A DNA stretch of 64,000 bases, taken from positions 62,001 through 126,000 of the forward strand of contig JANYGW010000072.1 in assembly GCA_025359245.1 (NCBI GenBank). The letters are read 5' to 3'. Under the pieces are notes generated by a model. That model did no database searches. It was not told the origin of the DNA and saw only the letters and a list, made by a program, of their open reading frames with translations. Below, piece by piece: positions 33,491 to 52,020 of the stretch (position 1 is its first letter; each line of letters opens with the position of its first letter). Made by a program: the position numbers and the translations under genes. This stretch comes from Massilia sp. Lineage in GTDB: Bacteria > Pseudomonadota > Gammaproteobacteria > Burkholderiales > Burkholderiaceae_D.

Positions 33491-34423
33491 TTGAATACCC
33501 CAACCACCCTGACCATCGCCTCGCGCGAAAGCCGGCTCGCCATGTGGCAGGCCGAACATGTCCGCGCGCGCCTGGCCGCGCTCTATCCGGACTGCCGCAT
33601 CGAGATCCTCGGCATGAGCACGCGCGGCGACCAGATCCTCGACCGCACCTTGTCCAAGGTGGGCGGCAAGGGCCTGTTCGTCAAGGAGCTTGAAGTGGCG
33701 ATGGCCGAATGGCGCGCCGACCTGGCCGTGCATTCGCTCAAGGACGTGCCGATGACGCTGCCGGAAGGCTTCGAGCTGGCCGCCGTGCTGGAACGCGAAG
33801 ACCCGCGCGACGCCTTTGTGTCGAACCTGTATGACGGCCTGTACGCGCTGCCGGCCGGCGCCGTCGTCGGCACCGCCAGCCTGCGGCGCCAGGCGCTGAT
33901 CGCGGCGCGCCATCCGCAACTGGTGATCGAGCCGCTGCGCGGCAACCTCGATACGCGCCTGGCCAAGCTCGATAGCGGCGCCTACGCCGCCATCATCCTG
34001 GCCGCGGCCGGCCTGAAGCGGCTTGGCCTGGCCGGGCGCATCCGCTGCACGCTCGACACGGTGCCGGCTCCCGGCCAGGGCGCGATGGCGATCGAAGTCG
34101 CCGGCGGGCGCCCCGAGCTGCTGCGCTGGCTGGCGCCGCTGAACCACCGCCCGACGGCGCAGTCAGTGGCCGCCGAGCGCACGGTGTCGCGCATCTTCGG
34201 CGGCAGCTGCGAGATTCCGCTGGCCGCGTATGCGACCGTGCATGGCAGGACGATGGAACTGGAGGCGGTGATCGCCACGCCCGACGGGCACCGGATGGCG
34301 GTGGCGACCGGGCTTGGCAGCCCGGACGCGCCGGAGGCGCTGGGCCGGCGCGTGGCCGACATGCTGATCGCGCAGGATGCGCATGCGATCCTGGCGGCGT
34401 GCCTGGGGGCGGTTGCCGCATGA
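33491..34423 (+). CDS. hemC: porphobilinogen deaminase (hydroxymethylbilane synthase)
   Basis: Assembles four porphobilinogens into hydroxymethylbilane for heme and siroheme. The 310 residues carry [65 protein letters not shown] and the cofactor block [14 protein letters not shown], with Cys240 that holds dipyrromethane. There is no ATG; TTG 33491 is set as start, nine bases after AGGAG (33477-33481). It converges on hemA across a 400-bp spacer containing a palindromic repeat element. Confidence 0.93.
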
Positions 34424-34495
34424 CGCAGCTGCGGCGTGGTGTGACGAGCACCGCATCAGAATTCACGCCGTCGGCTTAAACCAAAATCCAAACCA

Positions 34496-34741
34496 ACGTC
34501 GTCCTCGCGCGGCCGAGGGCGTTGCAAAAGGGGGCGGCCGCTCGATATCCTATAACGTCAACCATCGTCATTCCCGGGGCGGCGGGAATCCATACCACCT
34601 CTGCTCATAGATGGTATGGGGGAAATGCATGCATTTCCCCTTCGCGGGAACGACGGCTTTGATATTTCTTCAGAGGGTCTATTTCGCGTGGCGCATACAT
34701 CATTTTGCGTTTTGCAACAGCGTCGCACGCGGGGACGACGT
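34496..34741. repeat. MITE-like nested palindromic repeat element
   Basis: The 402 bp between hemC and hemA hold no gene. Terminal arms 34496-34529 and 34710-34741 are complementary in ACGTCGTCC...GTTGCAAAA and TTTTGCAAC...GGACGACGT. Inside lies a second inverted repeat (34566-34576 with 34645-34655), a perfect 8-bp stem (34590-34597 with 34612-34619) and a perfect 22-bp palindrome at 34619-34640. No transposase is encoded. It resembles the REP- or MITE-type intergenic repeats of Burkholderiales. Confidence 0.7.
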
Positions 34742-34825
34742 CGGTGAGAGAGATTTATTGAAAAAATGCCGAATCCGGCCTGCCGAAGGACTGCCCGGTT
34801 TGCGTTTAACTTAGCCGCATTCGAG

Positions 34826-36115
34826 TCAGTGGGAGGCGCGGAACAGCTGGGGCAGCAGGCGCGCCAGGTGCGCCCGTTCGGCGCCCTCGGCGCTGTGCAG
34901 CGCCAGTTGCGGTCCGTGCAGGAACTTGGCGGTCATCCCGCGCGAGAGCGCCTCCAATACCGCATCGATGTCGTCGCCGCGCGCCAGCAGCTTGCGCGCA
35001 CGCGCCAGTTCGGCCAGGCGCATGGTTTCGCTGGCCTGGTTCAGGTCCTGGATGATCGGCACCAGCGCACGCCGGTCGGCCCATTCCATGTACGACTGGA
35101 CGCGCGTCTCGATGATCGATTCGGCCTGTTCGACCGCGGCCTGGCGCAGTTCGCGCCCGCTCTGGACCACCTCGGCCAGGTCGTCGACCGTGTACAGGTA
35201 GACGTCGGGCAGGCGCGCCACTTCGCTTTCGACGTCGCGCGGCACAGCCAGGTCGACGATGAACATGGGCCGGCGGCGGCGTGCGCGGATCGCGCGTTCG
35301 ACCATGCCCAGGCCGATGATCGGCAGCGGCGAGGCGGTGCACGAAACGATGATGTCGCATCCGGCCAGCACGTCGGGCAGCTGTTCGAGCGCGATCGCGG
35401 CGCCCTTGTAGCGCAGCGCCAGTTCGGTCCCGCGCGCCACCGTGCGGTTGGCCACGATGATCGATTTGGGCTGGCGCGCGGCGAAATGGGCGGCGCACAA
35501 TTCGATCATTTCGCCGGCGCCGATGAACAGCACGTTCTGCTCGGCGATCGAGGGGAAGATGCGTTCGGCCAGGCGCACCGCGGCAGCCGCCATCGAGACG
35601 CTGTGGGCGCCGATCGCGGTCGCGCTGCGCACTTCCTTGGCCACCGAAAAGGTGCGCTGGAACATCTGGTGCAGATAGGTGCCCAGGCCGCCGCCGGCAT
35701 CGGCGCGGCGCACGGCCTCCTTCATCTGGCCCAGGATCTGGGCCTCGCCCAGCACCATCGAGTCGAGCCCGGAGGCGACCCGGAACGCATGCCGCACGGC
35801 GCCGTCGCGCGGCAGCGCGTACAGGTGCGGGCGCAGCTCGGCGTAGGGCAGGCCGTGGTAATCGGCCAGGAAGTGGGTGGTGGCGTCGACGTTGCCGTCG
35901 ATGTCGCCGCTGGCCGGGCTGGCCGCGTACAACTCGGTGCGGTTGCAGGTCGACAGGATGGCCGTCTCGATACGCGCGTCCGGCGCGGCGCGGCGCGCGA
36001 ACCAGTTGCACGCGGCGCCCACCGCTGCGCTGATCTGTTCGGGCGGGAAGGCCAGTCGTTCGCGCAGCGCGATCGGGGCGGTGGTGTGGTTCAGGCCGAC
36101 AGCGAGCAGGTTCAT
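34826..36115 (-). CDS. hemA: glutamyl-tRNA reductase
   Basis: Reduces glutamyl-tRNA to glutamate 1-semialdehyde, the first committed step of C5-route tetrapyrrole synthesis. The 429 residues have [19 protein letters not shown] at the start, the catalytic Cys57 in [23 protein letters not shown], and the nucleotide-binding [17 protein letters not shown]. It starts 11 bp after the fnr stop and so probably shares the fnr transcript, which would put heme precursor supply under the same oxygen-linked control. Confidence 0.95.
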
Positions 36116-36126
36116 CGCGCGTGCTC

Positions 36127-36927
36127 CTACATCGGGCGGCTGGCGGCGGTGCCGGCAGCGAGCGCGCGGATCATCGGCAGGTCGAGCAGCGTCACTTCGC
36201 GCTTGTCGACCGCGACCCAGCCCTGCTTGCGAAAGCGCGACAGCAAACGGCTGATGCTCTCGATCGTCAGGCCCAGGTAATTGCCGATCTCTTCGCGCGA
36301 CATGCGCAGCTGGAAACTGGTGGCCGAATAACCGCGCGCCGTGTAGCGCGACGACAGGTTGGCCAGGAACACGGCGAAGCGCTGTTCGGCGCGCATATTG
36401 CCCAGCAAGAGCATGACGTTTTGCTCGCGCATGATTTCGCCGCTCATCAGACGGTGGAAGTGGCGCAACAGCGTCGGCATTTCGCCGAACAGGCTTTCGA
36501 GCAGCGTGAACGGAATCTCGCACACTTCGCTGTCTTCGAGCGCCACCGCGTCGCAGGCGTGGCGGTCGGTGCTGATCGCATCCATGCCGAGCAGCTCGCC
36601 GGCCATCTGAAAGCCGGTGATCTGCTGCTCGCCGCCCGGCTGCAGCTGGAACGTCTTGAAGTGGCCGAAGCGGATCGCGTACAGGTTGGTGAAACGCTCG
36701 TCGCGCTTGTACAGGCGTTCGTCGCGCGCCAGCCGGCGGCGCCGGCCGATGATCTGGTCGAGCTGGCCCATGGCGCCGGCGTCGAGGCCCATCGGCAGGC
36801 ACAGCTTGTGCATGCTGCAGCCCTGGCAGCCGGCCGCAATGACGGCGCCGGCAGGGGCGGCGCCAAGGGCCGCAGCGGGCGGCGGGCTGGCAGGTCGGTC
36901 GTAGCGCTGGAGTGGCATGGTCATCAT
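36127..36927 (-). CDS. fnr: FNR-type oxygen-sensing transcriptional regulator
   Basis: A Crp/Fnr-family protein of 266 residues. Three N-terminal cysteines in [10 protein letters not shown] (Cys34, 37, 43; CX2CX5C) and Cys136 in DSEVCEIPF match the four [4Fe-4S] ligands of E. coli FNR, so it should sense O2. A cyclic-nucleotide-like fold ([20 protein letters not shown]) and a C-terminal helix-turn-helix [20 protein letters not shown], with the E-xx-SR contact set for TTGAT, follow. ATG 36927 is chosen because an earlier frame start (37020) lies upstream of a sigma-54-type promoter at 36988-37003; ATG 36966 is also possible. hemA follows after 11 bp. Confidence 0.92.
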
Positions 36928-36987
36928 TTTTTTTGGCTCGCTGGACAGGACGGCAGGGGGGCGCATGGCGCTGTTACCGGGTACTGA

Positions 36988-37003
36988 AGCAATCGCCGTG
37001 CCT
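36988..37003 (-). promoter_or_regulatory. sigma-54-type promoter of fnr-hemA
   Basis: Read on the minus strand it is AGGCACG-GCGA-TTGCT, matching TGGCACG-N4-TTGCW except the first base, with GG and GC separated by 10 nt. Transcription would begin near 36978, between the promoter and the chosen fnr start. Confidence 0.7.
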
Positions 37004-37043
37004 GCAGCCGCCACGGGCATGGCGAGGGCGCCGCGCCGTCAAT

Positions 37044-37089
37044 TTCCCGATTCTGGGAATCGGGGCGGCGCCACTCCCGGATGCAGGAA
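37044..37089. promoter_or_regulatory. paired upstream activator dyads (TTCCC-N6-GGGAA)
   Basis: Site 1 at 37044-37059 is TTCCC-GATTCT-GGGAA, site 2 at 37074-37089 is CTCCC-GGATGC-AGGAA. They start 30 bp apart, as does the pair at 44901-44946. They lie between the two divergent sigma-54-type promoters and are the likely binding sites for the NtrC-like regulator encoded at 46707. The 359-bp gap between fnr and the FrdA paralogue otherwise holds only these promoters and a possible leader peptide. Confidence 0.7.
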
Positions 37090-37121
37090 TGGCGGACCGG
37101 GCCGTCCCCGTGCGCACCACA

Positions 37122-37137
37122 TGGCATACGACTTGCT
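37122..37137 (+). promoter_or_regulatory. sigma-54-type promoter of the FrdA-paralogue/rquA operon
   Basis: TGGCATA-CGAC-TTGCT matches TGGCACG-N4-TTGCW in 10 of 12 defined positions, with GG (37123-37124) and GC (37135-37136) 10 nt apart. It sits 33 bp after the second activator dyad. Confidence 0.7.
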
Positions 37138-37173
37138 GTCAGGTACGACAACAAGACTAATCAGGAGAGCGGC

Positions 37174-37296
37174 ATGACCCCAACCATCCCCCCGGCGCCG
37201 AAGCCGGCGCGCCGTCGTCGGCCGCCCCGAGCCCCTGATCGTCGGCGCCGCGCACGCGCAATTCGAAGCACCTTGAGGAGCCTGGCGTGGAAATAG
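37174..37296 (+). CDS. possible 40-residue basic leader peptide
   Basis: An ATG preceded by AGGAG (37163-37167) opens a 40-codon frame, MTPTIPPAPKPARRRRPPRA and on, with many Arg and Pro. It is the first frame after the sigma-54-type promoter and ends ten bases inside the FrdA paralogue, a geometry that would allow coupling or attenuation. It could equally be a chance frame in GC-rich sequence. I recognise no family. Confidence 0.35.
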   Translation: MTPTIPPAPKPARRRRPPRAPDRRRRARAIRSTLRSLAWK

Positions 37297-39029
37297 TCAA
37301 AGTCGATGTCGTGGCAATCGGAGCCGGTGTGGCGGGACTGCGGGCCGCCATTGCGGCAGCCGAATCGGATCCTTCGCTGCGGGTGGCGCTGCTGTCGAAG
37401 TCTTACCCGATGGGCGGTTACAAGGGCGCTTCCGAAGCCGGCGCGGCCGGCGTGGTGCTCAGCGAGGACAGCCTGGAGCAGCACGCGGCCGACACGCTGG
37501 CCGCCGGCGCCGGCCTGTCCGACCGCGCCGCGGTCGACTATTTCGTGGCCAACTGCACGCGCGAGCTGGTGCAGCTGGGACGCTGGGGCTGCCCGTGGCT
37601 GCGCCAGCCGAACGGCGCGCCGGCGCCGCGGCGCGAACCGGGCATGGCGGCCGCGCGCAGCTGGACCAGCGTCAACGGCACCGGCTACGATGTGCTCGAC
37701 ACCCTGTTCCACGCCTCGCTGGCGCTGCGCGGCATCCTGCGCTTCGACGACTATTTCTGCCTCGACCTGCTGGTCGAGGATGGCGTCTGCCAGGGCGTGC
37801 TGGCGCTGCGCGTGCGGACCGGCACCTTCGTGCTGCTGCAGGCGCGCGCGGTGATCCTGGCCACCGGCGGGGCCGGGCGCGTGTTCCGCCACGGCACCGG
37901 CGGCGGCACCTTCACCGCCGACGGCATGGCGCTGGCCTACCGCCAGGGCGTGGCGCTGCGCGACCTCGAATTCGTCCAGCGCCATCCGACCTGCCTGCCT
38001 GGCAGCGGGGTGGCGCTGGCGCGCGCGTGCCGGGTCGAAGGCGCGCTGCTGCTGAACCGCCTCGGGCAACGCTACCTGGCCGATCCGCGCACGCCCGGCG
38101 CCGCGCCGCAGGAGGGCAGCCTGGAGCTCGGCTCCGACGCGGCGCTGGTGCACGCGTTCTGGCTCGAACAGCAGGCCGGGCGCACGCTCGAGACCCCCGA
38201 CGGTCCGGCGGTGCTGCTCGACCTGCGCGCGCTGGGCCGCCCGGCCATCGAAGCGCGCCTGCCCGGACTGCTCGACCTGGTGCAGCGCTGCAGCGGCATC
38301 GACGCGTCCGAACAGCTGGTGCCGGTCTGCCCCGCGGTCCAGTACAGCATGGGCGGCATCGCGGTCGACCTGCAGTGCGCGACCACGTTGCCCGGCCTGT
38401 ACGCGGCCGGCGAATGCGCCAGCGTCGGCCTGCACGGCGCCAACCGGCTCGGCGCCAACGCGCTGTCCGAGTCGCTGGTGTTCGGCAAGGTGGCGGGCGA
38501 ACAGGCAGTGCGGCGCGCGCGCTTGGGCAACTTTGCCGCCGGCGCGTCGCTGGAGTTGCTGGGCCTGCAAATCGAGCGGCGCGCGCAGGCGCAGCTGGGA
38601 CGCGACGGCGGGCGCGAACGGGTGCCGCTGCTGCGGCGCGCGATGGCGCAGGCGATGGAGTCCGGCTGCGGCATCTACCGCAGCAACGAGGCGATGGCGG
38701 CCACCATCGGCAAGCTGGGCGAGCTGCGCGCGCGCTTCCAGAACCTGGAGCGCTCCGCCGGCGCGGCGCGCGCCAGCGGGGCCTGGCTGGCGGCGCTCGA
38801 ACTGGGCTACCAGCTCGACGTGGCCGAGGCGATGGCCTGTTCGGCCGCCAGCCGGGCCGAGTCGCGCGGCGCTCATCAGCGCAGCGGCGTGCTGGCCGGC
38901 TATACCGATCCGCGCTATGCCCAGCACACGCTGGCGACCTGTGCCGGCGCGGACGCGCCGCACATCAGCTATGCGGCAGTGGGCGCGCCGCTGGTTTCGC
39001 GCGCGGTCCCGCTGCGGGGTGCGGCATGA
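37287..39029 (+). CDS. FrdA-like flavoprotein with altered active site
   Basis: A 580-residue paralogue of the fumarate reductase flavoprotein FrdA. GAGVAG (residues 12-17), FVQRHPTCLPGSG (229-241), GECASVGLHGANRLGANALSE (375-395) and the C-terminal SRAESRGAHQR align clearly. However, residues that FrdA uses are replaced. The FAD-linking His (YPMRSHT in FrdA) is absent from YPMGGYKG; TEG becomes ARA; the proton-donor Arg of LGPRD is LGSDA; the His of HYTMGGI is QYSMGGI. His233 and the Arg of HGANRLG remain. FAD is probably bound non-covalently, and fumarate reduction is unlikely as known. GTG start with GAGGAG upstream; no FrdB partner. Stop overlaps the next ATG. Confidence 0.8.
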   Translation: MEIVKVDVVAIGAGVAGLRAAIAAAESDPSLRVALLSKSYPMGGYKGASEAGAAGVVLSEDSLEQHAADTLAAGAGLSDRAAVDYFVANCTRELVQLGRWGCPWLRQPNGAPAPRREPGMAAARSWTSVNGTGYDVLDTLFHASLALRGILRFDDYFCLDLLVEDGVCQGVLALRVRTGTFVLLQARAVILATGGAGRVFRHGTGGGTFTADGMALAYRQGVALRDLEFVQRHPTCLPGSGVALARACRVEGALLLNRLGQRYLADPRTPGAAPQEGSLELGSDAALVHAFWLEQQAGRTLETPDGPAVLLDLRALGRPAIEARLPGLLDLVQRCSGIDASEQLVPVCPAVQYSMGGIAVDLQCATTLPGLYAAGECASVGLHGANRLGANALSESLVFGKVAGEQAVRRARLGNFAAGASLELLGLQIERRAQAQLGRDGGRERVPLLRRAMAQAMESGCGIYRSNEAMAATIGKLGELRARFQNLERSAGAARASGAWLAALELGYQLDVAEAMACSAASRAESRGAHQRSGVLAGYTDPRYAQHTLATCAGADAPHISYAAVGAPLVSRAVPLRGAA

Positions 39030-39718
39030 ACACCGAGCGCGCGCTGGGCGTGCCGCCCTACCTGACGACCCACTACTGGTGGGCCTATGTGCATCCGCGC
39101 GCGGTGCGCCTGTTCGAGCGCCAGTGGATCGTCAACCTGATCTTGTGGGGCAACTACAACCGCCTGCGCGAGGCGGTGCTCGACGCGCTGGGCGGGGCGG
39201 GCGGGCGCGTGCTGCAGGTCGCCTGTGCCTACGGCGACATCACGCCCAGGCTGGCCGGCCGGCTCGGGCCGCATGCGACGCTGGACGTGATCGACATCCT
39301 GCCGATCCAGCTCGACAACCTGGCGGCCAAGCTGCCGGCCGGCACCCCGGTGCGGCTGCACCAGATGAATTCGGCCGACCTGGGCTTCGCCGACGCCAGC
39401 TACGACCATGTGCTGATGTTCTTCCTGCTGCATGAACAGCCGCACGCGGTGCGCCTCGAGACGCTGGCCGAGGCGCTGCGCGTGCTGCGTCCGGGCGGCA
39501 CGCTGACCATCGTCGATTTCGGCCGCCCGCACCGCTTCCATCCGCAGCGCTTGCTGTGGCTGCCGCTGCTGGCGCTGCTCGAGCCGTTCGCCCCGGCCCT
39601 GTGGCGCGAAGACGTCGCCGCCTGGCTGCCGGCCGGCGCGCGGGTGCGCGAACGGCGCCGTTTTTTCGGCGGCGCCTACCAGATGCTGACCATCGTCAAT
39701 CCGAAGGACGCGCCGTGA
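39026..39718 (+). CDS. rquA: RquA-like rhodoquinone biosynthesis enzyme
   Basis: A 230-residue methyltransferase-fold protein. The N-terminal block THYWWAYVHPRAVRLFERQW followed by IVNLILWGNYNRLREA, the modified nucleotide motif VLQVACAYGDI (residues 62-72, in place of the usual VLDVGCGTG), and FFLLHEQPHAVRLETL are what I recall of RquA, the enzyme that exchanges a methoxy group of ubiquinone for an amino group to give rhodoquinone, using S-adenosylmethionine. Rhodoquinone carries electrons to fumarate under low oxygen. The ATG overlaps the FrdA paralogue stop, a strong functional hint. The alternative is an ordinary UbiE-like methyltransferase. Confidence 0.7.
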   Translation: MNTERALGVPPYLTTHYWWAYVHPRAVRLFERQWIVNLILWGNYNRLREAVLDALGGAGGRVLQVACAYGDITPRLAGRLGPHATLDVIDILPIQLDNLAAKLPAGTPVRLHQMNSADLGFADASYDHVLMFFLLHEQPHAVRLETLAEALRVLRPGGTLTIVDFGRPHRFHPQRLLWLPLLALLEPFAPALWREDVAAWLPAGARVRERRRFFGGAYQMLTIVNPKDAP

Positions 39719-39825
39719 GGAAGGCGCTGGTCGACACCGCCGATGGGCGCATGTACCGCGCCAGGCAGGAAGGGCGCGACCGCATCGTCAGCACCACGCT
39801 GACCCTGGGAGAATTGAATGGATAG
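39715..39825 (+). pseudogene. C-terminal remnant of a GGDEF domain
   Basis: A 36-codon frame starting at GTG 39715 (overlapping the rquA stop) encodes LVDTADGRMYRARQEGRDRI and a few more residues, the typical last helix of diguanylate cyclases (ADxALYxAKxxGRNRV). Nothing upstream in this frame belongs to the domain. Its end overlaps the next ATG. It looks like a leftover of a lost cyclase gene that has been kept as a translatable linker between rquA and the acetyltransferase gene. Confidence 0.6.
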
Positions 39826-42439
39826 GCATTATCTCGCACCCTTGTTCGCGCCGGCCTCGGTGCTGCTGTTCGCCGGCGGCGAGGACGGCGCCAGCGTCAG
39901 GGCGCAGCTGCGCGCAGGCGGCTTTGCCGGGCGCGTCACCGAACTGGACGCGGCCAGCAGCGGCACCCTGGGCGAGCTGGCCCAGGCGCGCGCCGACCTG
40001 GCCCTGATCGCGCTGCCGCCGGCCGAACTGGCGGCAGCGCTGGAAGCGGCCGGCCGCATCCAGTGCGGCGCGGCGCTGATCGTCTCGTGCGGCGTCGATG
40101 CAGCGCTGGCGCACACGCTGCACGCGATCGCGCGCAAGCACGCGATGCTGCTGCTGGGACCGAACTGCCTGGGCTTCCAGCGTCCGCAGCTGGGGCTCAA
40201 CGCCGGCCTGACCGGGCCGCTGGCCATTGCCGGCCCGGTGGCGCTGCTGTCGCAATCGGGCGCGCTGACGGCCGCCATCCTGGACTGGGCCGCGCGCAAC
40301 GGGGTCGGCTTTTCGACCGTGGTCTCGCTGGGACCGGGCACCGCGGTCGACCTGGCCCAGGCGCTCGACTTCCTGGCCAGCGACGGCAGCACCCAGAGCA
40401 TCGTGGTGTGCATGGAGGGCATCCTCGACGCGCGCCGTTTCACCAGCGCGCTGCGCGCCGCCGCCAACAGCAAGCCGGTGTTGGTGCTCAAGTCGGGGCG
40501 GCGCGCCGCCAGCACGCGTGCCGCGCTGACCCATTCGGGCGCGATCGTCGGCAGCGACGAAGTGTTCGACGCCGTGCTGCGGCGCGCCGGCGCGGTGCGC
40601 GTGAAATCCTTCGTCCAGCTGTTCGCTGCGGCCAAGGCGCTGGCCGCGCGCCATCGTCCGGTGGGCCCGCGCCTGGCCATCATTTCGAACGGCGGCGGGC
40701 CGGCCGTGCTGGCCGCCGACCGCCTCGCCGGGCAGGGGCTGGCACTGGCCCACTTGACGCCGGATGCGGCCGCCGTGCTGGCGGGCGAGCTGGCGCCGCT
40801 GGCGTCCATCGTGGACCTGATCGACCTGTCGGGCGCTGCCACGCCGGCGCATTACGCGGCGGCGCTGCGCGCCTGCGGGCGCGACACCGGCGTCGACGGC
40901 GTGCTGGCGATCTATTCGCCGCGCCTGGGCGGCGACCCGCTGGCCGTGGCGCAGGCCATCGCGCCGCTGGCGGCCGGGCTGGGCAAGCCGCTCTTGACCT
41001 GCGCCATGGGCGAGGACACGGTGGCGGTCGCGCGCGCCGCCCTCAACACGGCCGGCATCGCCACCTTCCGCACGCCGGAAGCGGCGGTCGACGCCTTCGG
41101 CCACATCGCCGCCTTTTATCACAACCAGCAGCTGCTGCGCCAGACGCCGCCGCCGCTGTCGCACCTGGCCAAGCCCGACCTGGAAGGGGCGCGCATGCTG
41201 GTCGAGGGCGTGCTGGCCGAGCGCCGCTACGTGCTCACCGAAATCGAATCGAAGGCGCTGCTGGCCGCGTTCCACATTCCGATCACCCAGACCGTGCTGG
41301 CGCGCAGCGCCACCGAAGCGACCCTGGTGGCGAGCCAGTTGGGCTATCCGGTGGCGCTGAAGATCGACTCGCCCGACATCGCCCACAAGTCCGACGTCGA
41401 GGGCGTGGTGCTGAACGTGCCCAACGCCAGCAGCGTGCGCGAGCTGTACGGCGCGATGCTCGAGAGCGTGGCGCGGCTGGCGCCCGAGGCGCGCGTGCAG
41501 GGCGTGTCGGTGCAGAAAATGTGCGCCAAGAAGCGCGGGCGCGAGCTGTACATCGGGGTGCTGACCGACCATCCGTTCGGCCCGGTGATCGCGTTCGGCG
41601 CCGGCGGCACCAGCATCGAACTGCTGGACGACCGCGCGGTGGAACTGCCGCCGCTGAACCAGTTCCTGGCGCGCGGCCTGATGCAGCGCACGCGCGTGGC
41701 GGCCGCGCTGGGGCCGTGGCGCGGCGCACCGGCGGCCGACCTGGTGGCGGTCGAGCAGATTTTGCTGCGCGTGTCCGAAATGGTGTGCGCGTTGCCGCAG
41801 CTGCGCGAAATGGACATCAACCCGCTGATCGTCGACGCCGACGGCGCGCTGGTGGTGGACGCGCGCATCGTGGTCGGCCATGCGCCGGCGGCGCTGCACA
41901 ACTACGAGCACCTGGCGATCCTGCCATATCCGTCGAACTACCAGCAGGACTGGCCGCTGCGCGGCGGCGGCCACGCGACGCTGCGCCCGGTGCAGCCGGA
42001 CGACGCGCTGATGCTGCAGGAGTTCGTGCGGGCGCTGTCGGAGCAAGCGCGCTTCATGCGCTTCAATTCGAGCCTGCGCGAACTGCCGGCGCCTATGCTG
42101 GCGCGCTACACGCTGATCGACTACGACCGCGAAATGGCGATCGTCGCGCTGGCCAAGGGGGGCGAGCGGATCGTCGGGGTGGCGCGCTACATCCGCAACC
42201 CGGACCTGGCCAGCTGCGAATTTTCGCTGGTGGTGGCCGACGCGCTGTGCGGCGAAGGCCTGGGCACGCGGTTGATGCTGGCCATCATGGACGTGGCGCG
42301 CCACAAGGGCTTGAGCGAGATCGCCGGGCTGGTCCTGGTGCGCAACGCCACCATGCTGCGCCTGATGGGCAGCCTGGGGTTCCGGATCGCGCCGTATGAG
42401 GACGATCCCGATTTCCGGCTGTGCAGCAAGGCCTTGTGA
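39818..42439 (+). CDS. pat: Pat-type protein lysine acetyltransferase (NDP-forming acyl-CoA synthetase-like plus GNAT)
   Basis: A large 873-residue protein. Residues 1-130 look like a CoA-binding domain (LLGPNCLGFQ near 115), then succinyl-CoA-ligase-like parts (LLSQSGALTAAILDWA, ISNGGGPAVLAADRL), an ATP-grasp domain (about 470-700; YPVALKIDSPDIAHKSDVEG, AFGAGGTSIELL, EMDINPLIVD) and a C-terminal GNAT acetyltransferase (about 715-873; GVARYIRNPD, GLGTRLMLAIMDVARHKG). E. coli PatZ/YfiQ has this order and acetylates enzymes such as acetyl-CoA synthetase. Its presence in an apparently redox-controlled operon suggests control of central metabolism by acetylation. Confidence 0.88.
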   Translation: MDRHYLAPLFAPASVLLFAGGEDGASVRAQLRAGGFAGRVTELDAASSGTLGELAQARADLALIALPPAELAAALEAAGRIQCGAALIVSCGVDAALAHTLHAIARKHAMLLLGPNCLGFQRPQLGLNAGLTGPLAIAGPVALLSQSGALTAAILDWAARNGVGFSTVVSLGPGTAVDLAQALDFLASDGSTQSIVVCMEGILDARRFTSALRAAANSKPVLVLKSGRRAASTRAALTHSGAIVGSDEVFDAVLRRAGAVRVKSFVQLFAAAKALAARHRPVGPRLAIISNGGGPAVLAADRLAGQGLALAHLTPDAAAVLAGELAPLASIVDLIDLSGAATPAHYAAALRACGRDTGVDGVLAIYSPRLGGDPLAVAQAIAPLAAGLGKPLLTCAMGEDTVAVARAALNTAGIATFRTPEAAVDAFGHIAAFYHNQQLLRQTPPPLSHLAKPDLEGARMLVEGVLAERRYVLTEIESKALLAAFHIPITQTVLARSATEATLVASQLGYPVALKIDSPDIAHKSDVEGVVLNVPNASSVRELYGAMLESVARLAPEARVQGVSVQKMCAKKRGRELYIGVLTDHPFGPVIAFGAGGTSIELLDDRAVELPPLNQFLARGLMQRTRVAAALGPWRGAPAADLVAVEQILLRVSEMVCALPQLREMDINPLIVDADGALVVDARIVVGHAPAALHNYEHLAILPYPSNYQQDWPLRGGGHATLRPVQPDDALMLQEFVRALSEQARFMRFNSSLRELPAPMLARYTLIDYDREMAIVALAKGGERIVGVARYIRNPDLASCEFSLVVADALCGEGLGTRLMLAIMDVARHKGLSEIAGLVLVRNATMLRLMGSLGFRIAPYEDDPDFRLCSKAL

Positions 42440-42443
42440 GGCG

Positions 42444-44792
<2,349 letters not shown>

Positions 44793-44900
44793 GGATCTCT
44801 CGCGCAGGGACGGTAGCTGCCCTTGCTGCGGGGCATCAGCAGTATCGTACGCGTTTTCCGGCGCGGCGTGGCCATCAGTCTATCGTGCGCTGGTGGCCGT

Positions 44901-44946
44901 TTCCCGGAATCGGGAAAATACCGCTGCCGACTCCCATTCGCGGGAA
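44901..44946. promoter_or_regulatory. second pair of activator dyads (TTCCC-N6-GGGAA)
   Basis: Site 3 at 44901-44916 is TTCCC-GGAATC-GGGAA, exact; site 4 at 44931-44946 is CTCCC-ATTCGC-GGGAA. Start-to-start spacing is 30 bp, identical to the pair at 37044. They lie in the 313-bp gap between the hybrid kinase and the NtrB-like gene, which holds no other feature I can support apart from the promoter at 44987. Confidence 0.7.
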
Positions 44947-44986
44947 TCGGCGCCGCCGCACGGCATCGCGGCGCCCCGCGCGGCGC

Positions 44987-45002
44987 TGGAACCAAACTTG
45001 CT
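44987..45002 (+). promoter_or_regulatory. sigma-54-type promoter of the NtrB/NtrC-like pair
   Basis: TGGAACC-AAAC-TTGCT has GG (44988-44989) and GC (45000-45001) 10 nt apart and a perfect -12 block TTGCT. It lies 40 bp after the dyad pair and about 100 bp before the kinase start, which suggests autoregulation. Confidence 0.68.
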
Positions 45003-45105
45003 TAGGCCGGTAGCAACAGTAATCGATCCGCGGCTTTCAGGAGGCCAAACACCATGCTCCACACCACTTCCCCGCGCCGGCGTGAGCGCTCCGACAAGGT
45101 ATATC

Positions 45106-46710
45106 ATGCCAGACAATGAAGACACAGCGCACATCGGCCAACGCCTCGGGCGTGCCGTGCACACCATGATCGCGACGCTGGCGCCGAACCGTGCCAGGCC
45201 GCACGGCGCGCCTGGTGCGGCGCGGCGCGCGCCGATCTCCGTGCGTACCAAGGGCATGCTGGTATTCGGCGCGCTGATTGCCTATTCGGTGCTGGTTGCC
45301 GCCTTTGCTTTGCAGCAGAAACAGCTGCTGCTGCGCGACTTCGACGCCATCGAAGGCACGCTGGAAACGGAAGCGATGCTGGCCCAAGCCGACGTGGCGG
45401 CCTACCACACCCTGATGGCGCTGTTTGTCAATCCGGCGCCCAATGATGCTGCCGCGCTGGCGCGCATCCGCGCCAATTACCAGGCGCTGCTCGCGCGCCA
45501 GGCGGCGCTGGCCGCGCGCCTGCCCGGGGTCCAGCTCGACCAGCACGAACTGACGGCGGCCTGGGCGGCGCTGGGCGGCCAGGTGCCATCGCGCGCCAGC
45601 CTGGACGGCATGATCGCGCAGTTGGTCGACACCAAGAACGACCTGGCCGGGCTGACCCGCCAGTTGCAGGACACGCGCCGCGAGGCATCGGCGCGCTATC
45701 GCCAGCGCAGCGATTCGGTGGCATTCGCTGCGCTGCTGCTGGGCATGCTGGGCCTGGGTTTGCTGGGCGCGGTGAGCGGCCTGTTCTTCCGGCGCCTGAC
45801 CGACGACCTGCGCATCCTGCGCCAGCGCGCGCTGGCCATCGTGGGCGGCTACCGCGGCGCGCCGCTGGCGGTCACGCGCCATGACGAAGTGGGCCAGCTG
45901 ATGGTCGCGGTCAACGACATGGCCGCCACGCTCGACCAGCGCGAGAAGGAAGTCGCGCGCAAGCGCCAGCAGGTTTTCCACCAGGAGAAAATGGCCGCGA
46001 TCGGCGCGCTGGCTGCCGGCGTGTCGCACGAGATCGGCAATCCGATCGCCGCCATTTGCGGCATCGCCCAGGAAATGATCGAGCGGCGTAACGCGGCCGA
46101 GCAGGGCTGCGCGGGACCCGATTGCCACGATTGCCGGCCCGACCTGATCTACGCCCAGGCCGAAAGGCTGGCCGCGATCACGCGCGAAATTTCCGAGTTC
46201 GCCTCGCCGCGCGAAGCCGAGCCGCAGTTTCTCGACCTCAATGCCCAGCTGCGCAGCACCAGCCGGCTGCTGCGCTACGACCGGCGCTTGCAAAAGGTCA
46301 GCCTGCGCCTCGACCTGGACAGCCAGCTGCCGGCCGTGTACGGCGTCAGCGACCACCTGACCCAGCTGGTGATGAATTTGCTGATCAACGCGATGGACGC
46401 GCTCGAGGAGGTCAAAGGACGGGCCCCGATGCTGACCATTTCGACGCGCGCCGAAAGCGAGCGCGCGCTGCTGGTGATCGAGGATAATGGATCGGGCATT
46501 GCCCCGGCCGACCTGGAGCGCGTGTTTGAAGCCTTTTTCACTACCAAGCCGGCCGGTAAGGGCACGGGCCTCGGCCTGTCATTATGCTATTCGATCGCCA
46601 AGCGCCACGGCGCGACGATCGAAATCGACTCCACCCTGGGCGCTGGCACCCGCGTCCAGGTGGGTTTTCCACTGAACGATACAGCCTACAACGAAGCGAG
46701 CCCCTTATGA
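45106..46710 (+). CDS. membrane sensor kinase, NtrB-like, with cysteine cluster
   Basis: A 534-residue kinase. TM segments are at about 51-69 and 205-228, enclosing a helical periplasmic sensor domain of about 135 residues, then HAMP (229-280) and HisKA with His308 in GVSHEIGNPIAAICGIAQEM. Directly after this helix comes EQGCAGPDCHDCRPD, with Cys335, 340 and 343 (CX4CX2C), an unusual place for cysteines and a possible Fe-S, zinc or redox switch. The ATPase domain has NLLINAMDAL, DNGSGIAP and GKGTGLGLSLCYSI. ATG 45106 follows AAGGT. The stop overlaps the response-regulator ATG. Confidence 0.88.
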   Translation: MPDNEDTAHIGQRLGRAVHTMIATLAPNRARPHGAPGAARRAPISVRTKGMLVFGALIAYSVLVAAFALQQKQLLLRDFDAIEGTLETEAMLAQADVAAYHTLMALFVNPAPNDAAALARIRANYQALLARQAALAARLPGVQLDQHELTAAWAALGGQVPSRASLDGMIAQLVDTKNDLAGLTRQLQDTRREASARYRQRSDSVAFAALLLGMLGLGLLGAVSGLFFRRLTDDLRILRQRALAIVGGYRGAPLAVTRHDEVGQLMVAVNDMAATLDQREKEVARKRQQVFHQEKMAAIGALAAGVSHEIGNPIAAICGIAQEMIERRNAAEQGCAGPDCHDCRPDLIYAQAERLAAITREISEFASPREAEPQFLDLNAQLRSTSRLLRYDRRLQKVSLRLDLDSQLPAVYGVSDHLTQLVMNLLINAMDALEEVKGRAPMLTISTRAESERALLVIEDNGSGIAPADLERVFEAFFTTKPAGKGTGLGLSLCYSIAKRHGATIEIDSTLGAGTRVQVGFPLNDTAYNEASPL

Positions 46711-48110
46711 AATCGATGGATGTCATGGTCATAGACGACGAGCCGGCGATCCGCCAGGTGCTGGCCGCGATGCTGAACAAGGCCGGCTACATCGTGTGCC
46801 AGGCCGCCAACGGAACCCAGGCATTCGAGCGCCTGGCCAAGGGCGACATCGACGTGGCGATCTGCGACATCAAGATGCCCGACATCAGCGGCATCGAGCT
46901 GGTGCGGCGCGCGCGCGCGGCCGGCATCGACACCAATTTCGTCATGATGACCGCGTTCGCCTCGGTCGACACGGCGATCGAGGCGATCCAGGCCGGCGCC
47001 TCCGACTACATGATCAAGCCGGTGCGCAACGAGGAAGTGCTGCACCGGCTGGTCAAGATCGAAGACCTGCGTGGCCTGCGCGCCGAGAACCAGGTGCTGC
47101 GCAGCCTGGTACAGGGCCGCAAGGAAGACCAGTTCAGCTTCGCCGCACCGGCCATGCGCGACCTGGACCGCCTGATCGCCAAGGTCTCGCCGACCGACAG
47201 CACGGTGCTGGTGACGGGCGAGAGCGGCACCGGCAAGGGCGTCATCGCGCGCCGCATCCACCAGCAAAGCCCGCGCGCGAATGCGCCCTTCATTCCGGTC
47301 AACTGCGGCGCGCTGCCCGAGAACCTGATGGAGAGCGAATTGTTCGGCCATACCAAGGGCGCCTTCACCGGCGCCGACAAGGCGCGCAAGGGCCTGTTCC
47401 TGGAAGCGGACAAAGGCACCATCTTCCTCGACGAAATCGGCGAACTGCCGCTCCAGCTGCAGGTCAAGCTGCTGCACGTGATCGAGGACAAGAGCATCCG
47501 CGCGGTGGGCAGCGAAACGGCGCGCCGCGCCGACGTGCGCATCATCGCCGCCACCAACCGCGACCTGGCCCAGATGGTGGCCGAAGGGCGCTTTCGCGAA
47601 GACCTGTATTTCCGCCTGTCGGTGTTCCAGATCCACGTGCCGCCGCTGCGCGAGCGGCGCCAGGACAACGGCGAACTGGTGCGCTTCCTGCTGCGCCGCG
47701 GCGCCGCCCGCATGGGCATCACGCACGAGATCACGATCGACGCCGACGTGCAGGCCATCTTCGACCTGTACGACTGGCCGGGCAATGTGCGCGAGATGGA
47801 AAACGTGGTTGACCGCGCGTTGATCCTGTCCGACCACGGCCACATCACGCACGGCGATTTGCCGCCGCAGTTACTCAAGGGCGCGCGCGCCGCCGCGCCC
47901 GGCATTGCCGTGGGCGACAGCGGCGACGGCCTGCGCGAACAGGTGCGGCGCTTCGAATGCGCGCTGATCGCGCGCGCCATCGCCGACGCCGATGGCGACC
48001 GGCGCGCGGCGGCGGCCAAGCTGGGAATCGGCTTGTCCAGCCTGTACCGCAAGCTGGAAGAACTCGAAGGCGCTGGATTGGCGGCGGCCGACGGCGCCCC
48101 GGCAAGATGA
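46707..48110 (+). CDS. NtrC-family sigma-54-dependent response regulator
   Basis: A 467-residue activator. The receiver domain has Asp54 in VAICDIKMPD; the AAA+ domain has the P-loop GESGTGKG (171-178), the sigma-54 contact GAFTGA (218-223), Walker B GTIFLDEIGELPL, and FREDLYFRLSVFQIHVPPL; the C-terminal Fis-like helix-turn-helix ends AAKLGIGLSSLYRKLEEL. The start overlaps the kinase stop (ATGA). The sigma-54-type promoters and repeated dyads at 36988-37137 and 44901-45002 are probable targets. Confidence 0.93.
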   Translation: MKSMDVMVIDDEPAIRQVLAAMLNKAGYIVCQAANGTQAFERLAKGDIDVAICDIKMPDISGIELVRRARAAGIDTNFVMMTAFASVDTAIEAIQAGASDYMIKPVRNEEVLHRLVKIEDLRGLRAENQVLRSLVQGRKEDQFSFAAPAMRDLDRLIAKVSPTDSTVLVTGESGTGKGVIARRIHQQSPRANAPFIPVNCGALPENLMESELFGHTKGAFTGADKARKGLFLEADKGTIFLDEIGELPLQLQVKLLHVIEDKSIRAVGSETARRADVRIIAATNRDLAQMVAEGRFREDLYFRLSVFQIHVPPLRERRQDNGELVRFLLRRGAARMGITHEITIDADVQAIFDLYDWPGNVREMENVVDRALILSDHGHITHGDLPPQLLKGARAAAPGIAVGDSGDGLREQVRRFECALIARAIADADGDRRAAAAKLGIGLSSLYRKLEELEGAGLAAADGAPAR

Positions 48111-48152: not shown

Positions 48153-48217
48153 ACAAGCGCCGCTAGCATATCGCTACGATGGGAGCCTTGATTTTAGACA
48201 AGTTCCCCCGAGGCGAC

Positions 48218-48898
48218 ATGGATCTTAAACTGAACAGCATATTGGCCAATACCAGCCTGTACAAGATGCTCGACGCCGGTCAGATTGCCCAGGTCGCCGC
48301 CGGCACCAGCCCCATGCGCATGCGTCCGAACAGCAGCATCGTCAACCAGGGCGACGCCGCCGACGGTGCCTATTGGGTGGTATACGGCCAGGTCAAGGTG
48401 GGCGTCTACAGCAAGCAGGGGGGCGAGAAGACGCTGGCCATCCTGGGCCCGGGCAAGTGCTTCGGCCTGGGCGAGATGCTGCTTGACCAGCCCCACCTGG
48501 CCTTCGTCAAGACCACCGCCGACACCTTGCTGCTGCACACCGGGCGCGATGTGATGCTGGCGGTGGCGCAGCAAAATTTCGATTTCTCGCGCGAGGTGAT
48601 GAGCTGCCTGGGACGCCAGTTCTATGCGCTGATGCGCGACATCGAAGCCTATTCGCACACGGCGCGCCAGCGCCTGGCCGGCTACCTGATGCGCCAGGCG
48701 GCCGGCGCCGACGGCGCCGAGAACGCCAGCGAGATCGCGCTGGTGGCCAACAAGGTGCTGATTGCCTCGCGCTTGTCGCTGGCGCCCGAGACGCTGTCGC
48801 GCCTGTTCCGCGATTTCGCCGCCGAAGGCTTGATCACGATCGCCGGACGGCGCATCCGCATCCTTAACTGGGATGGCCTCACGGCGCTTGTCAAATAG
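48218..48898 (+). CDS. Crp/Fnr-family regulator, DNR-like
   Basis: A 226-residue regulator without the N-terminal cysteine cluster of FNR, so it does not bind [4Fe-4S] in that way. The cyclic-nucleotide fold (NQGDAADGAYWVVYGQVKVG, GPGKCFGLGEMLL) is followed by the helix-turn-helix VLIASRLSLAPETLSRLF, whose E-xx-SR pattern fits TTGAT half-sites as in FNR and the NO sensor DNR. NO or heme sensing is a suggestion only. ATG 48218 has GAGG five bases upstream; an earlier in-frame start at 48179 is possible. Confidence 0.85.
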   Translation: MDLKLNSILANTSLYKMLDAGQIAQVAAGTSPMRMRPNSSIVNQGDAADGAYWVVYGQVKVGVYSKQGGEKTLAILGPGKCFGLGEMLLDQPHLAFVKTTADTLLLHTGRDVMLAVAQQNFDFSREVMSCLGRQFYALMRDIEAYSHTARQRLAGYLMRQAAGADGAENASEIALVANKVLIASRLSLAPETLSRLFRDFAAEGLITIAGRRIRILNWDGLTALVK

Positions 48899-48931: not shown

Positions 48932-48945
48932 TTGATCTGGGTCAA
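48932..48945 (+). promoter_or_regulatory. FNR box upstream of hemN
   Basis: TTGAT-CTGG-GTCAA matches TTGAT-N4-ATCAA in nine of ten positions and is 77 bp before the hemN start. Confidence 0.75.
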
Positions 48946-49022
48946 GGAAATGGCCGCTTGCAGTGCCTACACTTGCGCAAGATCATCCCGCACCGTGCGG
49001 GCATAACAAGGAGTCTCCCATC

Positions 49023-50438
49023 ATGGCGTTGTCCGATATTGCGGTTAAAACCGTTCCTTCCGTCGAATTCGATGGTGAACTGATCCGCAAACTGACCCAG
49101 CAGGGTCCGCGCTACACGTCCTACCCGACCGCCGACCGCTTCAGCGCCGGCTTCAGCTATGGCAACTTCCTGCAGGAGGTGTCCATGCTGCACGGCCAGG
49201 CCGGGCGCGCGCTGTCGCTGTACCTGCACATCCCGTTCTGCCAGGACGTCTGTTACTACTGCGCGTGCAACAAGATCGTCACGCGCGACCGCTCCAAGGC
49301 GGTCACCTACCTGGCCTACCTGAAGCGCGAGATCACGATGCAGGGCAGCCTGTTTGCCGGCATGAACCGGGTCGAGCAGCTGCACCTGGGCGGCGGCACG
49401 CCGACTTATTTCGACGACGACCAGATGGACGAACTGCTGGCCCATCTGCGCCACTGGTTCGATTTCGCGCCCGACGACGTGGGCGAATATTCGATCGAGG
49501 TCGATCCGCGCACGGTCTCGTTCGAGCGCGTGCAGCGCTTGCGCGCGCAGGGCTTCAACCGCATCAGCCTGGGTGTGCAGGACTTCAATCCGGAAGTGCA
49601 GAAAGCGGTCAACCGCATGCAGCCGGAGGCCGAGACGCTGGCCATCATCGACGCCGCGCGGGTGGCCAAGTTCCGCTCGGTCAGCATCGACCTGATCTAC
49701 GGCCTGCCCAAGCAAAGCCGCGTGACGATGGACGAGACGCTGAGCAAGTGCATCAAGGCCGCGCCGGACCGCATCGCGATCTACAACTACGCCCACCTGC
49801 CGCACCTGTTCAAGCCGCAGCGCCGCATCGCGCTCGAGGACATGCCGAGCGGCGAAGAGCGCCTGGCCATGCTGGCCCTGTGCATCGAGCGCCTGACCGG
49901 CGCCGGCTACATCTACATCGGCATGGACCACTTCGCCCGTCCCGATGACGACCTGGCGATCGCCCAGCGCCACGGCCTGTTGCACCGCAACTTCCAGGGC
50001 TATTCGACGCACGCCGACATGGACATGGTGTCGTGCGGCGTGTCGGCCATCAGCAGCGTGGGACGCAGCTACAGCCAGAACGTCAAGCAGCTCGACGCCT
50101 ATTACGCGCTGATCGACAAGAACGAATTGCCGATCGAGCGCGGCATCACGCTGAGCGACGACGATGCGCTGCGGCGCGCCGTGATCCAGATGCTGATGTG
50201 CGATTTCGAGCTGTCGGTGGCGGCGCTCGAAGAGCAGTTCCCGATCGACTTCCACACCTATTTCGCGGCCGAACTCGAACGCCTGGCCGTGCTGGCCGGA
50301 CAGGGCCTGCTGACCATCGAAGACAACTGGCTGACGGTGACGCCGAAGGGGCGCCTGCTGATCCGCAACGTGTGCATGGTGTTCGACCGCTACCTCAATC
50401 CGCAGGCAGAACCGCTGCGCTATTCCAAGACCATATAA
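49023..50438 (+). CDS. hemN: oxygen-independent coproporphyrinogen III oxidase
   Basis: Radical-SAM enzyme making protoporphyrinogen IX without oxygen. The 471 residues have the cluster motif [10 protein letters not shown] (Cys73, 77, 80 with the fourth Cys82), preceded by YLHIPF; then [25 protein letters not shown] and YGLPKQ, and the N-terminal [13 protein letters not shown] typical of true HemN rather than HemW. The ATG has AAGGAG upstream and an FNR box before it. pdxH follows after 11 bp. Confidence 0.96.
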
Positions 50439-52006: not shown

Positions 52007-52020
52007 TTGATGCACATCAA
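52007..52020. promoter_or_regulatory. perfect FNR box in the divergent stress-gene promoter
   Basis: TTGAT-GCAC-ATCAA is a perfect match to TTGAT-N4-ATCAA, between the divergent UspA-type gene (start 51909) and the small gene at 52139. Confidence 0.85.

Follow-up and report, generated by a model that had tools for sequence, protein, structure and literature searches.

A candidate sigma-54-dependent two-component switch with paired putative operator dyads at its own operon, at a rhodoquinone operon and at fnr-hemA in Massilia sp.

In the window analysed here (the whole stretch of 64,000 nucleotides from a contig of Massilia sp.), the oxygen regulator gene fnr and the adjoining hemA lie back to back with a gene pair ending in rquA, raising the question of whether one switch governs both sides of the shared intergenic region and, if so, which regulator operates it. 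The sequence-only reading had proposed divergent sigma-54 promoters flanking paired TTCCC-N6-GGGAA dyads, with function inferred and the regulator left open. The genes and elements concerned are:

34826-36115, minus strand: hemA, a second copy of the glutamyl-tRNA reductase gene, starting 11 bp past the end of fnr
36127-36930, minus strand: fnr, Fnr subfamily (NF008365, 258.7 bits against a cut-off of 228)
36988-37003, minus strand: sigma-54-type -24/-12 element AGGCACGGCGATTGCT, reading into fnr-hemA, predicted start at about 36977
37044-37059, no strand: putative enhancer dyad 1, TTCCCGATTCTGGGAA
37074-37089, no strand: putative enhancer dyad 2, CTCCCGGATGCAGGAA, imperfect, 30 bp from dyad 1
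37122-37137, plus strand: sigma-54-type element TGGCATACGACTTGCT, reading into frdA2-rquA, predicted start at about 37148
37174-37296, plus strand: short leader ORF with a Shine-Dalgarno-like sequence, overlapping the start of frdA2
37287-39029, plus strand: frdA2, encoding an FrdA-like flavoprotein that falls below the cut-off of all 25 families shown
39026-39718, plus strand: rquA, rhodoquinone biosynthesis (NF038261, 269.7 bits against a cut-off of 175)
39818-42439, plus strand: gene for an acyl-CoA synthetase/GNAT (Pat-like) protein, possibly in the frdA2-rquA operon

HemA, RquA and Fnr, together with HemN encoded further along the window, all exceeded curated cut-offs, and Fnr, a member of the FNR group, carries the cluster-binding cysteines C-x2-C-x5-C. 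The frdA2 product reached 636.6 bits against a cut-off of 854 for the FrdA equivalog and is thus an FrdA-like paralogue. The other hemA match in the genome, 73% identical, lies on contig C152 beside a gene read by eye as prfA. Given the short gap between fnr and hemA and the 4-bp overlap of frdA2 and rquA, each promoter would drive at least two genes.

Both sigma-54-type motifs were present where the sequence-only reading had placed them, and their GG-to-GC spacing was as claimed. The fnr-side element reads AGGCACG-GCGA-TTGCT and the frdA2-side element TGGCATA-CGAC-TTGCT. The available text of PMC12316311 gives the sigma-54 consensus as TGGCAC-N5-7-TTGCT; the form applied here was TGGCAC-N5-TTGCT, with GG and GC 10 nt apart and C or T at the sixth base. 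Outside GG and GC, the frdA2-side element had 0 mismatches, the fnr-side element 1 (at its first base) and the corresponding element at the kinase operon described below 1. The 30-bp offset between the dyad starts was likewise found, and dyad 1 (TTCCC-GATTCT-GGGAA) has no arm mismatch; dyad 2 (CTCCC-GGATGC-AGGAA) departs from the motif at 2 of 10 arm positions, so that the proposed designation strictly fits only one of the pair. The predicted dyad centres lie at -66.5 and -96.5 relative to the frdA2 promoter. An rpoN gene was found in the genome (82% complete), and no Rfam family matched within 34400-46000 at gathering scores.

The same layout of paired dyads and a sigma-54-type element recurs once in the window, 5' of genes for a sensor kinase and a response regulator:

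44901-44916, no strand: putative enhancer dyad TTCCCGGAATCGGGAA, 5' of the kinase gene
44931-44946, no strand: putative enhancer dyad CTCCCATTCGCGGGAA, 30 bp further
44987-45002, plus strand: sigma-54-type element TGGAACCAAACTTGCT, kept at orthologous kinase operons, predicted start at about 45013
45054-45119, plus strand: short leader ORF overlapping the start of the kinase gene
45106-46710, plus strand: sensor histidine kinase, with a helical region between two hydrophobic helices, HAMP, HisKA with a Cys-rich hairpin, and HATPase
46707-48110, plus strand: NtrC-type response regulator, with a receiver, a GAFTGA-containing AAA+ domain and a Fis-type HTH
48179-48898, plus strand: Crp/Fnr-family regulator

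This second copy (44901-45002) was not listed in this finding of the sequence-only reading. Both leader ORFs in the window (37174-37296 and 45054-45119) are Arg-rich, carry Shine-Dalgarno-like sequences and lie 3' of a plus-strand sigma-54 element. On the opposite strand at 42444-44792, between the pat-like gene and the kinase operon, lies a gene for a hybrid PAS histidine kinase with receiver domains and an Hpt domain.

Taken singly, the motifs are no rarer than chance: with up to 2 mismatches, the window held 13 dyads against 19.7 expected and 29 sigma-54 matches against 39.3 expected. Their combination is rare. Requiring GG and GC and allowing no more than 1 further mismatch left only 4 sigma-54-like sites in the window, 3 of which lie next to the dyad pairs at 37 kb and 44.9 kb. 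No dyad pair arose when each of the two intergenic regions was shuffled 20,000 times by a first-order Markov model, and a sigma-54 site of such quality came up in 0.5-0.9% of shuffles per strand. In the 4.96 Mb of genome searched (about 82% complete), the paired pattern, with up to 2 mismatches over its fixed positions, matched at 2 places, both within the window, while the backwards control pattern gave 0 matches at the same threshold. A looser pair pattern added one match, within coding sequence on C19, and a third consensus added one 3-mismatch match on C27. Several exact N6 dyads elsewhere in the genome were rejected as operators: those on C19, C27 and C111 sit inside coding sequence, the one on C168 belongs to a palindrome built differently, near a tRNA gene, and any sigma-54 match within 200 bp of these four has 3 or more mismatches. 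The lone exact dyad at 34635 was rejected as well, as it sits amid inverted repeats; the stretch around it (34560-34650, between hemC and hemA) holds an ATTCCC-N8-GGGAAT palindrome followed by more inverted repeats and resembles a dispersed repeat element.

The response regulator, queried from 46701 (two codons upstream of 46707), matched PF00072, PF00158 and PF02954 and carries GAFTGA, the domain make-up of an NtrC-type enhancer-binding response regulator. Like those of NtrBC, ZraSR and AtoSC, which work with sigma-54, it combines a receiver, a GAFTGA AAA+ domain and a Fis-type HTH, and its putative sites are tandem dyads at about -70 and about -100. Unlike in these systems, none of the 25 NCBIfam families shown was matched above its curated cut-off (AtoC, 433.8 against 714 bits; NtrC, 393.5 against 558.6; ZraR, 344.8 against 760), and the regulator would have a different operator and a different set of putative targets, namely rquA, hemA/fnr and cytochrome genes. 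The HTH stretch around GDRRxAAxKLGIGLSSLYRK is kept among the aligned orthologs. The kinase carries a C-x4-C-x2-C hairpin soon after the H-box (DHp hairpin; window 46105-46140), and 16 of 25 orthologs have a CxxC motif in this hairpin, which the Gallionella-type ones lack. In the structural model of the kinase, which is of moderate quality (mean pLDDT 76.5, pTM 0.42) and served solely to judge helix content, to place the Cys loop and to compare the kinase core, a long-helix region is predicted, the cysteines fall in the loop at residues 331-344 that joins the two helices of the histidine domain, and the best Foldseek matches are to the cytoplasmic part of ZraS. The redox two-component systems RegBA and PrrBA also have cysteines near the phospho-accepting histidine and belong to the same physiological field; they differ in that the response regulator of the present system is of the sigma-54 activator type and its kinase has the cysteines in a CxxC-type hairpin. 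That the hairpin might act as a redox or metal switch is a guess.

For the comparison with relatives, an orthologous locus was defined as a kinase and a response regulator gene side by side. Kinase matches were found in 9 other family genomes of the 195 searched (54-66% identity, E up to 1e-60), and at that threshold the 12 other same-genus genomes included in the search gave no kinase match. Further matches came from records named Duganella, Herbaspirillum, Polaromonas, Rhodoferax, Janthinobacterium, Gallionella and others, several of them MAGs, and the scan of named genomes gave more than 79 kinase loci, of which 79 were retained. Kinase matches L039-L098 minus L042 (28-38% identity, partial) served as controls. 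Loci L100, L105 and L107, which duplicate L021, L027 and L025, were excluded from the untuned and tuned counts, L042 (close to L027) was excluded from the untuned count, and L020 (short, from the same MAG as L023) was dropped.

In the untuned count, for which the motif of the sequence-only reading was taken unmodified with up to 4 mismatches per pair and spacings of 17 to 80, 16 of the pairs in the 25 ortholog loci (493 kb, window included) were spaced at 29-30 bp and 8 at any of the 62 other spacings; for the 78 control loci (1.02 Mb) the numbers were 0 at 29-30 bp and 28 elsewhere in the range. Pairs at 29-30 bp occurred in 13 of the 25 ortholog loci; at the same stringency they were absent from the other 12, the Gallionella-type ones included, and two of these 12 (L023 and L031) begin at the kinase and hold no upstream DNA. 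A dyad combined with a sigma-54 site was counted 40 times in the 533 kb of 27 ortholog loci and once in the 953 kb of 59 control loci, a count in which a two-dyad promoter scores twice and the duplicate L105 is included. With a tuned matrix, 27 pairs spaced 28-32 bp apart were obtained for 26 ortholog loci and 6 for 78 control loci, but 18 dyads from those very loci had gone into its construction, which makes it circular for them, so the untuned count is the one relied on. Among the 22 of these 27 pairs that were listed (omitting two of L042 that repeat those of L027, one base-shifted pair of L029 and the weak pairs L024:10229 and L025:12793), 15 had a sigma-54-like site with at most 1 mismatch within 170 bp, and three more (in L021, L024 and L038) had one 166-241 bp off. 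Moreover, TGGAA[CT]-N5-TTGCT was found 5' of the kinase operon in 9 of the 13 kinase loci examined, and the wider form TGG[AC]A[CT]-N5-TTGC[AT] had 6 matches on both strands of the 953 kb of control loci.

The genes around the orthologous kinase operon include those for cytochrome c assembly, thioredoxin-like proteins, multihaem cytochromes and MtrB/PioB porins (neighbour families were tested for ten proteins; the others, as well as hemE-like genes, were read by eye), and no MtrB/PioB match was found in the window's own genome, which is 82% complete. According to the available text of PMC11707229, rquA is sparsely distributed, mostly in Betaproteobacteria, and has spread partly by lateral transfer. 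Among the genomes searched here, rquA was present in 8 of 10 kinase-positive against 18 of 185 kinase-negative genomes (Fisher p = 1.3e-6, kinship uncorrected). Of the 8 kinase-positive genomes that have rquA, two, the window's and G095, carry the dyad pair directly 5' of the rquA operon. In G095, paired dyads and TGGAACCGAAATTGCT precede a cluster of cytochrome c, MtrA (a DmsE-type decahaem protein), MtrB, NapC/NirT and rquA genes, and both the pair and the sigma-54 element are nearly identical to those of its kinase operon. At the thresholds used, no pair was found upstream of rquA in G016, G042, G118, G128, G151 or G162; a weaker pair lies some 4 kb beyond rquA in G016, and weaker ones are found further upstream in G118. 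The check by conservation in relatives that the sequence-only reading had named was therefore passed by the dyad pair and the -24/-12 element at the operon of the regulator itself and in front of rquA in one relative, and failed at rquA in these six kinase-positive genomes. In G118, G128, G151 and G162, rquA is located within or beside an MtrA-MtrB-like cluster (as read by eye and from CxxCH counts), and such a position within or beside porin-cytochrome clusters was observed in five genomes altogether (L142, L137, L141, L143 and L144), which hints that extracellular electron transfer may be fed by rhodoquinone in these genomes. Exact dyads near the starts of ccmC-like genes (L038, L099, L141 and L188) were set aside by eye as coding coincidence, because they lie in codons of a conserved F-P-(I/L)-(A/S)-G-K stretch.

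The comparative genomics thus supports the sigma-54 control through the dyads that had been proposed, and points to a likely regulator encoded about 10 kb away behind its own copy of the element. Most probably, the dyads are tandem enhancer sites (UAS) of the response regulator encoded at 46707-48110, a protein that would activate the operon encoding it as well as frdA2-rquA and, in this genome, fnr-hemA. In the mechanism that we infer, from binding and sigma-54 dependence to the signal, the direction of regulation and the cascade, the adjacent kinase would phosphorylate the response regulator on a signal, and regulator dimers would occupy the two dyads, about three helical turns apart, and then assemble an AAA+ ring that would remodel sigma-54 RNA polymerase at the flanking -24/-12 promoters. 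One UAS would serve the two divergent promoters of fnr-hemA and frdA2-rquA, and the second would make the kinase/regulator operon autoregulated. FNR would then act at its own boxes 5' of hemN and near usp genes, so that rhodoquinone, haem and the oxygen regulator would be induced together when oxygen becomes low. Such a mechanism would be classical; new to us are the operator, the regulator and the set of targets.

The candidate boxes for the last step are located further along the window:

48932-48945, plus strand: perfect FNR-type box TTGATCTGGGTCAA, 5' of hemN
48963-50438, plus strand: hemN, oxygen-independent coproporphyrinogen III oxidase (TIGR00538, 570.2 bits against a cut-off of 324.95)
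52007-52020: perfect FNR-type box between two usp-like genes (read by eye)

With the box defined as TTGAY-N4-RTCAA and up to 1 mismatch allowed, the window held 9 FNR-type boxes against 2.2 expected, a number reached in 0 of 100 shuffles. If fnr is under the sigma-54 switch, the hemN and usp boxes would mark second-tier targets, and their positions suggest a regulatory cascade.

The weakest part of this scheme is the fnr side, which was seen only in the window's genome. The sequence-only reading had suggested an enhancer-dependent switch above the oxygen regulator, and an alternative, unlikely though far from negligible, is that only the frdA2-rquA and kinase promoters depend on sigma-54, with the fnr-side match a chance neighbour and fnr-hemA expressed otherwise. 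The fnr-side element is indeed the weaker one, an equally good site arises on the fnr strand in 0.9% of shuffles, and none of 19 fnr loci from 16 other same-genus genomes, each with an fnr match, has paired dyads; sigma-54-like sites with at most 1 mismatch occur at 4 of these 19 loci, and 0 read into fnr from within 300 bp. What argues for the fnr side is geometry, as its predicted dyad centres (-74.5 and -104.5) equal those of the kinase promoter to the base, together with the failure of a simple scan of 36850-37350 to find a sigma-70-like site. In addition, at locus L025 a dyad pair separates a hemA gene (76% identical) from the divergently oriented cytochrome c assembly gene that lies upstream of the kinase, and GGGCACAATAGTTGCT stands on the side facing hemA. 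The spacing of the proposed switch was therefore borne out and its occurrence at fnr in the genus was not; since the same-genus loci lack the dyad pair, fnr-side control would be a local innovation, argued here from sequence and geometry.

Two further explanations concern the dyads themselves. They could be operators of another regulator, NtrC-type or a repressor, with the neighbouring kinase and enhancer-binding protein a bystander. At 1 mismatch, the paired pattern occurs in 4 of the 195 family genomes, the window's own included, and the three others (G018, G058 and G092) gave no kinase match at the threshold above; two of their matches lie in coding sequence (L007 and L009), and the G058 match (L008) is intergenic, near fnr and without a good sigma-54 site. 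(The same stretch of G058, L008:1395-1630, near fnr and cco-type genes, holds several TTCCC-N6-GGGAA-like dyads at spacings of 23, 32 and 20 bp.) Against a bystander role, a refined pair pattern (up to 3 mismatches) matched in 9 of 10 kinase-positive genomes and its backwards control in 0 of 10, and, even if some of its 3-mismatch matches elsewhere may be chance, it stood 5' of the kinase operon in 7 of the 9 kinase-positive genomes other than the window's. Moreover, G012 and G053, the two kinase-negative genomes with rquA that were retrieved from the genus of G095, lack a pair like that of G095. Another regulator is accordingly considered improbable. More improbable by far is that the palindromes are repeats rather than operators. 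The dRS3 repeats of Neisseria are of the ATTCCC-N8-GGGAAT type and occur in many copies, and one perfect element of this type is found in the window at 34570-34589, near the lone TTCCC-N6-GGGAA dyad at 34635. It is the single N8 element of the window, however, whereas the candidate operator dyads between fnr and frdA2 have N6 and are paired at a fixed spacing, and the exact N6 dyad occurs at only 7 places in the genome, three of them inside coding sequence.

The reading of the dyads as enhancer sites of the NtrC-type regulator bears on a question for which no account was found in the accessible portions of the open-access literature, namely how bacteria decide to make rhodoquinone. Within the part of PMC11707229 that treats rquA distribution, control of rquA is unmentioned; no earlier description of rquA control or of a TTCCC-N6-GGGAA-type operator was recognised in the open-access PMC text available, and a term search gave no match in PMC8805035. 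As in the RpoN regulon of Geobacter sulfurreducens, for which the available main text of PMC2725144 links sigma-54 to extracellular electron transfer cytochromes and dcuB, sigma-54 would here be tied to cytochromes; 'hemA' and 'heme biosynthesis' are absent from that text, and 'fnr' appears in it once, about E. coli dcuB.

A candidate regulator, operator and promoters for rhodoquinone control are now in hand and can be tested in culturable relatives. In addition, rhodoquinone is tied to outer-membrane cytochrome conduits by shared gene clusters and, in one genome, by a shared operator. If the fnr side is true, the locus would be a case of an enhancer-dependent switch above the oxygen regulator. 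More broadly, and tentatively, an undescribed redox-responsive two-component system with a cysteine-hairpin kinase, acting with sigma-54 through pairs of the operator TTCYC-R-N4-Y-GRGAA, could possibly be the master switch of rhodoquinone-based respiration in some Burkholderiales, one that would serve porin-cytochrome conduits, cytochrome c assembly and rquA in relatives and that may have been rewired, in the Massilia sp. genome studied here, to fnr, a second hemA and an FrdA-like flavoprotein.
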